Shown piece after piece: positions 18,438 through 23,066 of a stretch of 64,000 bases of DNA. The notes under the pieces are model-generated. The model saw only the letters and a list, made by a program, of their open reading frames with translations, was not told the origin of the DNA and did not search any database. The stretch lies in the NCBI RefSeq assembly GCF_009733845.1, contig NZ_WNXZ01000002.1, forward strand, positions 1 through 64,000. The letters run 5' to 3'. The translations under genes were made by a program, and so were the position numbers. The first letter of the stretch is position 1. Each line of letters opens with the position of its first letter. Source of the DNA: Pseudactinotalea terrae (GTDB lineage: Bacteria > Actinomycetota > Actinomycetes > Actinomycetales > Beutenbergiaceae).

Positions 18438-19478
18438 GTGACGGCCACCCTGGCGGTGAAGCCGGTCGCCCACCGAGTGCGGCGACCGGTACCCGTGCGC
18501 GTGCTCGGTGGGCTCGGCCTGCTCGTCGTGGTCGCGGGCGTCGCCGCCGCATCCCTGACGTTCGGCGTCCTGGACGTGGGGTGGGACGACCTGGTCGCCG
18601 GGATCGGGGGAGCGCAGGACACGACGGCGCAGGCGGCCGTGCTCAAACGGGTCCCGCGCACGGTGCTGGGGCTGGTCGTCGGGGCGGCACTGGGGGTCTC
18701 GGGTGCCGTGATGCAGGGGGTCACCCGCAACCCGCTCGCCGACCCCGAGATCCTGGGGGTCAACTCGGGAGCGTCGCTCGCCGTCGTGATCGGGATGGTG
18801 TTCCTGGGGCTGTCCTCGCAGGTCACCTACATTTGGGTCGCGATGCTCGGCGCGGCGGTCGCCGCGGTGTTCGTGTACGTGGTCGGGTCGCTCGGGCGCG
18901 GTGGCGCGACGCCGCTCAAGCTCGCGCTCGCGGGCGCGGCGACCTCGGTGGCGCTCGGCGCGCTCGTCAGCGCGATCCTGCTGCCTCGCGCGCAGGACAT
19001 GCAGTCCTTCCGGTTCTGGCAGATCGGCGGCGTGGGCGGCGGCTCGTGGTCCACGATCGGGCTGGTGCTGCCGTTCCTGGTGGCCGGCCTGCTGCTCTCG
19101 CTGGCCTCGGCCCGCGCGCTCAACTCGCTCGCCCTGGGCGACGAGTTGGCGGTGGGGCTCGGCCAGAACGTCAGCCGGGCACGGCTGCTCGCCGCTGTCG
19201 GGGGTGTGGTCCTGTGCGGGGCGGCGACGGCGGTCGCCGGGCCGATCGGGTTCGTCGGGCTGGTCGTGCCGCACGTGGTGCGGCTGCTGGCCGGGATCGA
19301 TCACCGGTGGCTGATCCCGCTGTCGGCGCTCGGCGGTGCGGCGCTGCTCACCGCGGCCGATGTGCTCGGCCGCCTGGTCGGTGGCAACGAGGAGATCCAG
19401 GCAGGCATCATCACCGCGATCGTCGGGGCTCCCTTCTTCATCTGGATCGTGCGCCGCCAGAAGGTCCGCGACCTGTGA
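18438..19478 (+). CDS. FecCD-family Fe-siderophore permease 1
   Basis: A 346-aa polytopic membrane protein with about nine to ten helices and the FecCD hallmarks RVPRTVLGLVVGAALGVSGAVMQ, TRNPLADPEILGVNSGAS and GPIGFVGLVVPHVVRLL. It forms one half of the import channel. GTG start with GGAGAG upstream. Its stop overlaps the next permease (GTGA). Confidence 0.95.
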   Translation: MTATLAVKPVAHRVRRPVPVRVLGGLGLLVVVAGVAAASLTFGVLDVGWDDLVAGIGGAQDTTAQAAVLKRVPRTVLGLVVGAALGVSGAVMQGVTRNPLADPEILGVNSGASLAVVIGMVFLGLSSQVTYIWVAMLGAAVAAVFVYVVGSLGRGGATPLKLALAGAATSVALGALVSAILLPRAQDMQSFRFWQIGGVGGGSWSTIGLVLPFLVAGLLLSLASARALNSLALGDELAVGLGQNVSRARLLAAVGGVVLCGAATAVAGPIGFVGLVVPHVVRLLAGIDHRWLIPLSALGGAALLTAADVLGRLVGGNEEIQAGIITAIVGAPFFIWIVRRQKVRDL

Positions 19479-20527
19479 CGACCCTGACCGAGGCCCCCTC
19501 GACGATCGAGGTCGTCACGACGGGCCGCGCCCGGCGGGCGCGACGACGCTGGCTCGTGCACGTGGGGCTCGCACTCGCGGTGCTGGCCGTGTTCTGGCTC
19601 TCGCTCATGCTCGGCCGGACCTACTACCCGGCCTCCGACGTGATCGCGGTGATCCTCGGTGGCGACGTCGACGGCGCCTCCTTCACGGTGGGCACGTTGC
19701 GGCTGCCCCGCGCCGTGACCGGGCTGCTGGTCGGCTTCGCGTTCGGCCTGGCGGGGGCGACCTTCCAGACGATGCTGCGCAACCCGCTCGCCAGTCCCGA
19801 CGTGATCGGGATCAGCTCCGGTGCCAGCGCGGCGGCGGTCATCGGGATCCTGGTCCTCAACCTCAGCCCGACCGCCGTCTCGGCGATGGCGACCGCGGCC
19901 GCGCTCGTGACCGCCTTCGCCATCTACCTGCTGTCCTACAAGCAGGGCGGCGTCGCCAACACCCGGCTCATCCTCATCGGGATCGGCATCGCCGCGATGC
20001 TCAGCAGCGTGGTGTCCTACGTGCTCTCCGGCGCCGCGGCCTGGGACATGCAGGTCGCGATGCGCTGGCTCACCGGCAACCTCAACGGAGCCACCTACGA
20101 GCGCACGCTGCCGCTGGTGATCGCCGTGGTGCTGCTCGCGCCCGTGCTGCTGTGGCTGCTGCGCGACCTCGAGGCCATGCGGCTCGGCGACCAGACCGCG
20201 GCCGCGCTCGGCGTGCCCGTGGAGCGGACCCGGGTGCTGCTGATCGTCGTGGCGGTCGCGCTGATGGCCTTCGCGACGGCGGCCGCCGGGCCGATCGCGT
20301 TCGTCGCCTTCCTGTCCGGGCCCATCGCTGCCCGGATCCTCGGCCCGGTCGGCAGCCCCGTGCTGGCCTCGGGGCTCTTCGGCGCGCTGCTCGTGCTGGT
20401 GGCCGACTTCTTCGCGCAGTACGCGCTGGGCACCAGGTTCCCGGTCGGTGTCATCACCGGCGCGCTCGGCGCGCCCTTCCTCGTCTACCTGCTCGTCCGC
20501 AGCAACCGGTCCGGAGGTTCCCTATGA
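19475..20527 (+). CDS. FecCD-family Fe-siderophore permease 2
   Basis: A 350-aa partner of the preceding permease. It has the same family motifs LRLPRAVTGLLVGFAFGLAG, LRNPLASPDVIGISSGAS and GPIAFVAFLSGPIAARIL. The ~25 N-terminal residues are Arg-rich and cytoplasmic. Start (GTGA) and stop (ATGA) overlap both neighbours, so translation is probably coupled. Confidence 0.95.
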   Translation: MTTLTEAPSTIEVVTTGRARRARRRWLVHVGLALAVLAVFWLSLMLGRTYYPASDVIAVILGGDVDGASFTVGTLRLPRAVTGLLVGFAFGLAGATFQTMLRNPLASPDVIGISSGASAAAVIGILVLNLSPTAVSAMATAAALVTAFAIYLLSYKQGGVANTRLILIGIGIAAMLSSVVSYVLSGAAAWDMQVAMRWLTGNLNGATYERTLPLVIAVVLLAPVLLWLLRDLEAMRLGDQTAAALGVPVERTRVLLIVVAVALMAFATAAAGPIAFVAFLSGPIAARILGPVGSPVLASGLFGALLVLVADFFAQYALGTRFPVGVITGALGAPFLVYLLVRSNRSGGSL

Positions 20528-21336
20528 GCCACGCCCACACCCTCCGGGCCGAGCAGCTCAGCCTCGGCTACGGCGAGCGGTCCGTCGTCGAGAACCTCGA
20601 TCTGAGCATCCCGCCGGAGAGGATCACGGTGGTGGTCGGCGCGAACGCGTGCGGCAAGTCCACGATCCTCAAGGCGATGTCGCGGCTGCTGCCCGCGCGC
20701 CACGGTGCCGTGCTGCTCGACGGCAAGGCCATCCACGAGATCCCCACCAAGCAGGTCGCGCGCACGCTGGGGCTGCTGCCGCAGTCGCCGATCGCGCCCG
20801 AGGGCATCTCGGTCAGTGATCTGGTGGGCCGTGGCCGCCATCCCCATCAGGGGATGCTCAGCCGCTGGACCGCCGACGACGATGCCGCCGTGGCCCGCGC
20901 GCTCGACGTCACCGGCACGGCCGACCTCGCCGACCGCGCCGTGGACGAGCTCTCCGGCGGGCAGCGGCAGCGTGTGTGGGTCGCGATGGTGCTCGCGCAG
21001 CAGACCGAGCTGCTGCTGCTCGACGAGCCCACCACCTTCCTCGACGTCACGCACCAGGTCGAGGTGCTCGACCTGCTGACCGACCTCAACCGTGACTTCG
21101 GCACCACGATCGTGATGGTGCTGCACGACCTCAACCTCGCCGCCCGCTACGCCGACCATCTCGTGGCGATCAAGGGCGGGCGCCTTTACGCCGCCGGCGC
21201 CCCTTCCGACGTGCTCACCGAGACCTGCGTGCGGGATGTCTTCGGTCTCGACAACATGGTCGTGCCCGACCCCACCACCGGCAAGCCGCTCGTGCTGCCG
21301 CTCGGCCGCCACCACGTCGCCACTGCTGCTCGCTGA
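20524..21336 (+). CDS. Fe-siderophore ABC transporter ATP-binding protein
   Basis: A 270-aa ABC ATPase with Walker A GANACGKST (about residue 39), signature LSGGQRQRV, Walker B LLLLDEPTTFLD and the switch His in MVLHDLNLAARYADH. It matches the FepC/FhuC branch and powers the two permeases encoded upstream. It is the last gene of the iron-boxed operon. Confidence 0.95.
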   Translation: MSHAHTLRAEQLSLGYGERSVVENLDLSIPPERITVVVGANACGKSTILKAMSRLLPARHGAVLLDGKAIHEIPTKQVARTLGLLPQSPIAPEGISVSDLVGRGRHPHQGMLSRWTADDDAAVARALDVTGTADLADRAVDELSGGQRQRVWVAMVLAQQTELLLLDEPTTFLDVTHQVEVLDLLTDLNRDFGTTIVMVLHDLNLAARYADHLVAIKGGRLYAAGAPSDVLTETCVRDVFGLDNMVVPDPTTGKPLVLPLGRHHVATAAR

Positions 21337-21394
21337 CCCTCGTCCACATCGTGAGACCGCTCGGCTGGTTCGCTCGTGGCGGGAACCCGCTGGC

Positions 21395-21400
21395 TACCGT
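21395..21400 (+). promoter_or_regulatory. Probable -10 box of a leaderless leader-peptide transcript
   Basis: TACCGT ends 6 nt before the GTG-ATG pair that opens the small leader ORF, which places the transcription start at the start codon. Confidence 0.45.
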
Positions 21401-21409
21401 CGTGGCGTG

Positions 21410-21502
21410 ATGGCTACACACCTGGCAGCTGGCTCGTTCACGAGCCGACGCGCCGTCGACCTGCTCCGGGTCGCCAGCGCGCTGTGTCGGCGCGCCATCT
21501 GA
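21410..21502 (+). CDS. Actinobacterial leader peptide, probably cysteine/sulfur-responsive
   Basis: A 30-codon ORF with the core RRAVDLLRVASALCRR near its end. This matches the small putative leader peptides of actinobacteria (pattern H/A-V-D-L-x-R-V-A-S-A-L-C-R) that precede genes for sulfur and cysteine uptake or metabolism. A GTG (21407) immediately precedes the ATG in frame, so the ORF may start three bases earlier. It ends 142 bp before the DAACS symporter gene, and a GC-rich dyad follows it. Regulation by ribosome pausing at the Cys codon is the inferred mechanism. Confidence 0.72.
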   Translation: MATHLAAGSFTSRRAVDLLRVASALCRRAI

Positions 21503-21512
21503 TCTCACCGCA

Positions 21513-21528
21513 GCGGCAGCGCTGCCGC
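21513..21528 (+). promoter_or_regulatory. GC-rich dyad after the leader ORF, possible attenuator hairpin
   Basis: GCGGCAGCGCTGCCGC is a perfect 16-bp palindrome 10 nt after the leader peptide stop. It can fold as a 6-bp stem with a 4-nt loop. No U-tract follows. The rest of the leader up to 21644 has no other gene, and GAGAGGG provides the downstream ribosome site. Confidence 0.4.
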
Positions 21529-21644
21529 CATCGGTCGCAGCAGCCACCGGGCCTCTCCGGAGCACCGTGCGGCCTCGCTCCGCCAGAGCTGACCCTGCCG
21601 CGCCCAGCCGTCGCACGAACCACCCACACACATCGAGAGGGACC

Positions 21645-23066
21645 ATGTCCACCACAGCCGCAGAACCTGAGTCCGAGGCACCCGAGAAGCGCAGGCGCCT
21701 GAAGCTGCCCTCGTTCTCCACCCAGATCGTCATCTCGCTGATCCTGGGCGTCGTCCTCGGATGGATCGCGCTGACCATCGGGCCCGCGGGCGTCGACGAG
21801 GAGGGCGAGGACATCGCCAACGGCCTCACCGAGACTCTCAGCGTGATCGGCTCGAGCTTCGTCACGCTGCTGCGCACGATCGTGCCGCCGCTGGTGATCA
21901 CGGCCATCATCGCCTCGATCGCGAACCTGCGGAAGGTCACCAATGCTGCCCGCCTCGCCGGGCAGACCCTGCTCTGGTTCGCGATCACCGCGCTGGTCTC
22001 GGTGTCCTTCGGCATCGCGCTCGGCCTGATCCTGCAGCCGGGTGCGCGGTCGGGCGTCGACGCCTCCCAGGTCCGCGAGCCAGGCCGGACCGGGTCCTGG
22101 ACCGACTTCCTCACCGGCCTGATCCCCGGCAACTTCCTCGGCCTCGAGGCCTCGGAGAACGGTGCGAGCTTCAACGTGCTGCAGCTCGTGGTGATCGGCA
22201 TCGTCGTCGGCATCGCGGCGCTCAAGACCGGCAAGTCCGCCGAGCCGTTCCTCGAGTTCAACAAGTCGGCGCTCGCCGTCGTGCAGAAGGTGCTGTGGTG
22301 GGTCATCCGGCTCGCGCCGATCGGCACGATCGGTCTCCTCGGCCGCGCGGTGGCCACCTACGGATGGGACGCCCTCGCACCTCTGGGGACCTACGCCGTC
22401 GCGATCTACATCGGCCTGGCGCTGGTGCTGTTCCTGCTGTACCCGGTGGTGCTGCGCGCCAACGGGCTGAACCCGCTGCGGTTCTTCCGGGGTGCGTGGC
22501 CGGCGATCCAGCTCGCGTTCGTCTCGCGCTCCTCGATCGGCACGCTGCCGGTGACCGAGCGGGTCGTCACGCGCAACCTCGGTGTGCCGCGTGAGTACGC
22601 CTCGTTCGCGGTGCCGTTCGGTGCGACCACGAAGATGGATGGTTGCGCCGCGATCTACCCGGCGCTGTCGGCGATCTTCGTGGCCCAGTTCTTCGGCCTC
22701 GAGCTCTCGCTGTGGCACTACCTGCTGATCGTGTTCGTCTCGGTCGTGGGGTCGGCCGCGACCGCCGGCGTCACCGGTGCCACCGTGATGCTCACGCTGA
22801 CGCTCTCGACGCTGGGGCTGCCGCTGGAGGGCGTCGGCCTGCTGCTGGCGATCGACCCGATCCTCGACATGGGCCGCACGGCCGTCAACGTGGCCGGTCA
22901 GGCCATGGTGCCGACCGTCGTCGCCAAGCGCGAGGGCATCCTCGACCAGGAGCAGTACGACTCGGCGAACGGCGAGGACCTCTTCCGCGACGACGAGCCC
23001 GCCGAGCGCGAGGCCGCGAACGAGCAGCGCGGACCGGCTCGCCGGCCCGAGCCCGCCACCGCTTAA
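21645..23066 (+). CDS. DAACS-family dicarboxylate/amino acid:cation symporter
   Basis: A 473-aa membrane transporter of the GltP/DctA/TcyP family with about eight helices plus re-entrant loops. SRSSIGTLPVTERVV stands for the serine-rich hairpin, and VPFGATTKMDGCAAIYPALSAIFVAQF and DPILDMGRTAVNVAGQ are the conserved substrate/cation-binding stretches. A ~65-residue external loop separates early helices (about 138-190). The upstream cysteine-type leader peptide suggests L-cystine as substrate (TcyP-like), an inference from context. The C-terminus is a charged cytoplasmic tail. Confidence 0.9.
   Translation: MSTTAAEPESEAPEKRRRLKLPSFSTQIVISLILGVVLGWIALTIGPAGVDEEGEDIANGLTETLSVIGSSFVTLLRTIVPPLVITAIIASIANLRKVTNAARLAGQTLLWFAITALVSVSFGIALGLILQPGARSGVDASQVREPGRTGSWTDFLTGLIPGNFLGLEASENGASFNVLQLVVIGIVVGIAALKTGKSAEPFLEFNKSALAVVQKVLWWVIRLAPIGTIGLLGRAVATYGWDALAPLGTYAVAIYIGLALVLFLLYPVVLRANGLNPLRFFRGAWPAIQLAFVSRSSIGTLPVTERVVTRNLGVPREYASFAVPFGATTKMDGCAAIYPALSAIFVAQFFGLELSLWHYLLIVFVSVVGSAATAGVTGATVMLTLTLSTLGLPLEGVGLLLAIDPILDMGRTAVNVAGQAMVPTVVAKREGILDQEQYDSANGEDLFRDDEPAEREAANEQRGPARRPEPATA

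Follow-up and report, generated by a model that had tools for sequence, protein, structure and literature searches.

A short leader peptide of the actinobacterial cysteine/sulfur type precedes a DAACS-family transporter gene in the 64,000-nucleotide stretch of Pseudactinotalea terrae DNA analysed here (the window), and we think it probable that this leader responds to cysteine and governs an importer of sulfur amino acids. As judged from the distribution of the two genes among sequenced genomes, their pairing is old and wide. The most likely mechanism, and the one we favour, combines cysteine-limited ribosome stalling at a UGU codon with attenuation of the Rho type; both of its steps, like the identity of the substrate, are inferred, and the Rho step taken alone falls somewhat short of an even chance. 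The features on which the argument turns are as follows.

21345–21357, + strand: candidate box for a regulator, CACATCGTGAGAC, some 43 nt before the −10-like hexamer
21395–21400, + strand: −10-like hexamer TACCGT, recognised in the sequence and kept in both congeners, 9 nt from the leader ATG
21410–21502, + strand: leader ORF of 30 aa, MATHLAAGSFTSRRAVDLLRVASALCRRAI and stop, over the cut-off of NCBIfam NF042934 and kept upstream of orthologous DAACS genes
21485–21487, + strand: TGT codon for the core cysteine of the leader, the proposed sensor codon, marked by codon constraint
21503–21629, + strand: C-rich, G-poor untranslated spacer, a candidate Rho-loading region (C/G 1.69)
21513–21528, + strand: 16-nt palindrome GCGGCAGCGCTGCCGC, present in this sequence and absent from the congeners
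21635–21640, + strand: Shine-Dalgarno-like GAGAGG of the transporter gene, recognised in the sequence
21645–23066, + strand: DAACS transporter of 473 aa, predicted importer of cystine or another sulfur amino acid (PF00375, 349.8 bits)

A leader peptide of the cysteine/sulfur type

The leader ORF scores 35.1 bits against the NCBIfam profile NF042934 (‘cis_reg_atten, putative leader peptide’; cut-off 27), which bears out the preliminary description's proposal of a 30-aa leader of the cysteine or sulfur type, and it is the sole match over that cut-off in the 4.76 Mb genome. Against NF042933, the profile of the mycobacterial Cys-rich leader Ms5788A, it reaches 26 bits where the cut-off is 45, and with a single Cys codon in place of a run it falls outside the Ms5788A polycysteine class. 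The leader belongs to the catalogued actinobacterial cysteine/sulfur type, the NF042934/Ms5788A group. An in-frame GTG at 21407 may serve as an alternative start. Between the leader stop and the DAACS start lie 142 nt on the same strand, and the placement of the leader directly before the DAACS gene, also proposed from the first, holds well beyond this genome, the pairing being conserved across genera and families. An ORF of 30 codons is short, and might in principle be a chance reading frame with no regulatory role; we consider this most improbable, given that a curated cut-off is exceeded, that the match is the single one of its kind in the genome, and that its position before the same gene is conserved in many genera and families.

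Conservation of the leader–transporter pairing

When the whole genomes of 24 family members were scanned with NF042934 (E < 1e-4), four matches were obtained, all four directly upstream of an ortholog of the DAACS gene. All three genomes of the genus have the pair, as does one genome of a second genus of the family; the remaining family genomes with the transporter, which represent most of the family's genera, have no recognisable leader before it, and this speaks against the favoured explanation. Across the order, a scan of 297 genomes yielded leader matches in 56, over the cut-off in 38, and 15 of the 71 leader loci precede orthologs of the window transporter (about 68% identity or more), 13 of them assigned by sequence clustering and two by position (G293 and G096). 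Every ortholog in those 15 genomes has the leader (15/15) and three remote DAACS paralogs (26–31% identity), two of them DctA-like in their motifs, lack it; the first of these counts follows partly from the choice of genomes, and the three leaderless paralogs are the informative part.

A second collection, of named genomes, comprised 80 orthologs fetched regardless of leaders, 56 from Actinomycetota and 24 from Pseudomonadota. Using a model built from the order-wide leaders, a leader was found upstream of at least 35 of the 56 actinobacterial orthologs and none of the 24 others (the model includes DAACS-linked leaders, so that its E-values are somewhat flattering; the peptides are readable directly). 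The leader-bearing genera include Cellulomonas, Cellulosimicrobium, Jiangella, Nocardioides, Nocardiopsis, Blastococcus, Nakamurella and Georgenia, and a quick tree with long outgroup branches shows no more than that the loci with a leader are dispersed within its actinobacterial part. Around the transporter we found no other widely conserved neighbour gene and no conserved sulfur neighbours, only the leader being kept, so that the leader stays with the transporter while the context changes.

Genes behind other leaders of the type

The first genes after the other leaders were clustered by sequence, and one representative of each cluster was identified. Among their products are sulfite/nitrite reductase-type proteins (10 loci), CysD, TauE/SafE (3), TauD, FMN reductase (2), a sulfurtransferase and NlpA lipoproteins (2), as well as luciferase-like monooxygenases (5), family-5 solute-binding proteins of the peptide-binding kind (11) and an FAD-NAD(P)-binding protein (11). 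By these assignments most of the targets serve sulfur acquisition, which is our main reason for reading the transporter as an importer of a sulfur compound.

The host genome itself carries a cluster with a gene for a sulfite/nitrite reductase and two of the PAPS_reductase family, and the idea that a cysteine-auxotrophic host accounts for the arrangement was rejected on this ground. Among this genome's leader matches none over the cut-off lies at its own sulfate-assimilation genes, a result that we count against the favoured explanation.

The transporter and its likely substrate

The PF00375 (SDF) score of the transporter compares with a gathering score of 27.9, and the NCBIfam models for DctA (197.5 and 148.9 bits; cut-offs 513 and 570), GltP (176.9; cut-off 638) and SstT (92.3; cut-off 308) all score below their cut-offs. 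Of the E. coli proteins compared, TcyP is nearest (31.8% identity, 177 bits), with GltP narrowly behind at 170 bits, followed by DctA (143) and SstT (63). The TcyP proteins of E. coli and B. subtilis are 52% identical, and both are L-cystine symporters (PMC4383340); the K-12 annotation of TcyP reads cystine/sulfocysteine:cation symporter. An insertion in TM7, GCAxxYPA, is common to the window transporter and E. coli TcyP and is missing from GltP, DctA and SstT, although it is not unique to this pair, as the GCA insertion in TM7 is found in the leaderless remote paralog L221 as well. Orthology with TcyP was considered and rejected in view of the low identity, the near-equal GltP score, the long branch in the tree and the separate clade.

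The preliminary description had held that the leader narrows the substrate, to cystine. This survives in so far as a sulfur amino acid is the best guess. Cystine is a likely substrate by prediction, and by sequence S-sulfocysteine, cysteate or even aspartate are conceivable as well. It is conceivable, if quite unlikely, that the leader is real and the cargo is not a sulfur compound at all but aspartate, glutamate, serine or a dicarboxylate that is needed when cysteine is short: among solved structures the transporter matches an aspartate transporter best (248 bits), and it retains Arg397, which in GltPh binds acidic side chains. Against such a cargo stand the other identified leader targets, which are mostly sulfur acquisition genes, and the DctA-like paralogs of the same genomes, which have no leader.

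In the clade of the transporter, aligned motifs place Lys at the position of GltPh Asn310 and Gln at that of Asp405, and both GltPh residues are among the listed sodium-site residues (PMC12668577). With these two replacements, ion coupling in the transporter is probably unusual and a canonical sodium site unlikely; in this clade the place of a cation may be taken by a buried Lys. Our reading would give a widespread DAACS clade a role in sulfur metabolism, where sequence similarity alone leaves the substrate open.

A fixed UGU codon in a constrained peptide

The core cysteine is encoded by TGT in 62 of 65 order-wide leaders, as against 4 of 38 other Cys codons in the same leaders; the leaders are related by descent and such counts are not fully independent, the other Cys codons of the same leaders being the better control. 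TGT accounts for 21 of 166 Cys codons in the genes downstream of the leaders (by rough ORF calls) and for 25 of 141 in the genes of the window. Where the leaders are DAACS-linked, the core codon is TGT without exception (36/36) and the DAACS genes behind them have TGC (36/36). Since the bias was first found by looking, leaders from further orders of the phylum were counted as a check; in these the core codon is again always TGT (25/25) and the other Cys codons are TGT in 13 of 43 cases. Retention of the UGU for the sake of local RNA structure was tried as an explanation and rejected, since changing UGU to UGC in the DAACS-linked leaders shifts the fold in no consistent direction (mean 0.0 kcal/mol, 11 lower and 10 higher). 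Our literature search found no paper on UGU choice in these leaders and none on actinobacterial cystine uptake by DAACS transporters.

Synonymous codons vary at the Asp, which is invariant, and at the nearly invariant Arg and Leu positions (core R, D, L, R), so that selection acts on the peptide itself. A Trp nine residues before the Asp, part of a WxLTxR-type signature, occurs in 27 of 38 DAACS-linked leaders versus none of 48 others; the window leader is without it. There are exceptions at the cysteine itself: the UGU position is a stop codon in leaders L104 and L118, two Blastococcus leaders end before the position, and P or S takes its place in two leaders of other genes. Leaders L104, L118, L149 and L154, in which the UGU has given way to a stop or the peptide ends earlier, have nevertheless kept the rest of the core.

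Such a pattern might be expected of an arrest peptide whose conserved nascent chain detects a small molecule, either cysteine or a sulfur metabolite, with the UGU marking the arrest site and not reporting on charged tRNA, and we regard this as a rather unlikely but serious competitor. The conserved core with its free codons, the signature confined to DAACS-linked leaders and the leaders that do without the cysteine all speak for it, and TnaC, which senses tryptophan and has an adjacent rut site, offers a model (PMC10941005). However, the Cys codon is the most constrained feature of all, and the window's own leader lacks the Trp of the signature. Related polycysteine leaders, moreover, respond to cysteine limitation via codon stalling. 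The fixed UGU is a simple feature by which codon sensing and peptide sensing could be separated in this large actinobacterial leader family.

The spacer and the proposed mode of attenuation

The C/G ratio of the spacer is matched or exceeded by just 0.45% of the window's 127-nt stretches. Median C/G is 1.80 at leader-bearing DAACS loci versus 1.15 at leaderless actinobacterial orthologs (P = 4e-11), and for the other leaders it is 1.70 after the leader versus 1.03 before it, a control that is imperfect in that untranslated leaders, or 5′ untranslated regions, may be C-rich generally. A C-rich spacer fits Rho-dependent attenuation of the kind modelled by TnaC with its adjacent rut site (PMC10941005) and suggested for mycobacterial cys leaders (Seliverstov et al., 2005; PMC1262725).

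Under the favoured mechanism of UGU stalling with a Rho step, a ribosome supplied with plentiful cysteinyl-tRNA would complete the leader and leave, so that the C-rich spacer would lie bare and Rho (or an RNA structure) would stop expression of the transporter. With cysteinyl-tRNA in short supply, the ribosome would stall at the single UGU, five codons before the stop, and would keep Rho off, allowing the transporter to be made. The transporter would then belong to the cysteine regulon and take up cystine or a closely related sulfur amino acid, for example S-sulfocysteine.

The preliminary description had pointed to a 16-bp dyad after the leader stop, and the dyad is indeed there, but as a terminator or attenuator hairpin it does not hold up: no run of T follows it that could give a U-tract, it is not conserved in the congeners, and the fold of the spacer RNA is no more stable than that of its shuffles (z = 0.00). 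The palindrome is probably without function as a terminator. A scan of the spacer for terminator-like sites found none, its longest T-run being 1, and a search for Rfam elements or riboswitches gave no match up to E 1.

The same leader and the same sensing could instead act by translational attenuation, in which the stalled ribosome frees the Shine-Dalgarno sequence of the transporter gene from RNA structure. This is the mode named for cysteine genes of M. smegmatis (PMC13236596). In our simulations of a stall at the UGU, the Shine-Dalgarno sequence is freed at a few Nocardiopsis loci (accessibility 0.19 to 0.68 at L147 and 0.19 to 0.63 at L158), but over all 37 loci accessibility rises in 6 and falls in 4, and in the window it goes from 0.61 to 0.53. 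Spacer length, too, varies from 15 to 289 nt across leader loci, and the window spacer, as noted, lacks unusual fold stability; in these folding tests, sequestration of the Shine-Dalgarno sequence did not emerge as a general mechanism. Canestrari and colleagues are said to have described in 2020 such freeing of the Shine-Dalgarno sequence by stalling for mycobacterial polycysteine leaders, and we keep it as an alternative for the window that is unlikely without being negligible.

Taken further, the favoured mechanism leads to a tentative and somewhat doubtful proposal, that the actinobacterial cysteine leaders form one system in which a conserved nascent peptide would present a single obligatory UGU, retained over the genome's preferred UGC, as the cysteine sensor and would gate Rho at a C-rich spacer. 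The genes so controlled would include a hitherto unassigned DAACS clade that takes up cystine or S-sulfocysteine and whose cation sites are altered by Lys at Asn310 and Gln at Asp405.

The putative promoter region

The preliminary description had put the −10 box 6 nt upstream of the leader ORF; for the hexamer TACCGT that spacing applies only to the GTG at 21407, the distance to the ATG being 9 nt. That GTG is absent in the two congeners, in which the hexamer again lies 9 nt from the ATG. A scan upstream of the leader found no sigma-70 consensus. Leaderless or nearly leaderless transcription of the leader ORF is plausible.

Further upstream, the hexamer TGAGAC occurs at the same place in both congeners, and it is present upstream of 14 of 44 DAACS-linked leaders versus 5 of 56 other leaders. 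Boxes resembling CAnATnnTGAGAC stand upstream of leaders L122, L156, L127, L092, L121 and L102, as well as in the window. The TGAGAC or CAnATnnTGAGAC-like box is possibly a transcription factor site, and we offer it as a lead only; TGAGAC as a sulfur-regulon site in the sulfate cluster of this genome was rejected, no convincing copy having been found there.

Two ABC permease-like ORFs, of the iron-siderophore type as judged by eye, and an ATPase ORF occupy positions 18438–21336 on the same strand and end 73 nt before the leader start. Read-through from these ORFs into the leader is conceivable.

Comparison with known systems

Among characterized transporters, GltPh, GltP and DctA share with the window transporter membership of the DAACS family and the motifs in HP1, HP2 and TM8, but the window clade has one residue more in TM7 and one fewer in HP2, and differs from GltPh in the Lys and Gln described above. 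TcyP (YdjN) of E. coli and B. subtilis is likewise of the DAACS family and has both the TM7 GCAxxYPA and the Arg in DMGRT; it differs from the window transporter, beyond the limited identity, in that the latter has TKMDGC for IGQNGC and Q for S at 405, and belongs to a separate clade.

The leader resembles TnaC of the E. coli tna operon in that a conserved leader peptide is followed by a candidate Rho-loading spacer and that a transporter is among the targets, whereas the peptide and the signal are different and Rho is here only a candidate. With other NF042934 leaders it shares the core RRxVDLxRVASAxC and the placement of a short ORF immediately before the gene it accompanies, for the most part a sulfur-related one, and differs from them in its target, a DAACS transporter clade; most DAACS-linked leaders, unlike that of the window, start with the WxLTxR-type sequence. 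The leaderless polycysteine ORFs of mycobacteria (Ms5788A, NF042933) share the core RRAVDLxRVA, but carry a run of Cys codons where the window leader has one, and no general fold that sequesters the Shine-Dalgarno sequence was found here. Three polycysteine leaders from one genus outside the order (L238, L239 and L240) have the same core, and their UGU is just as far from the Asp, a link between the single-cysteine and polycysteine types of leader.
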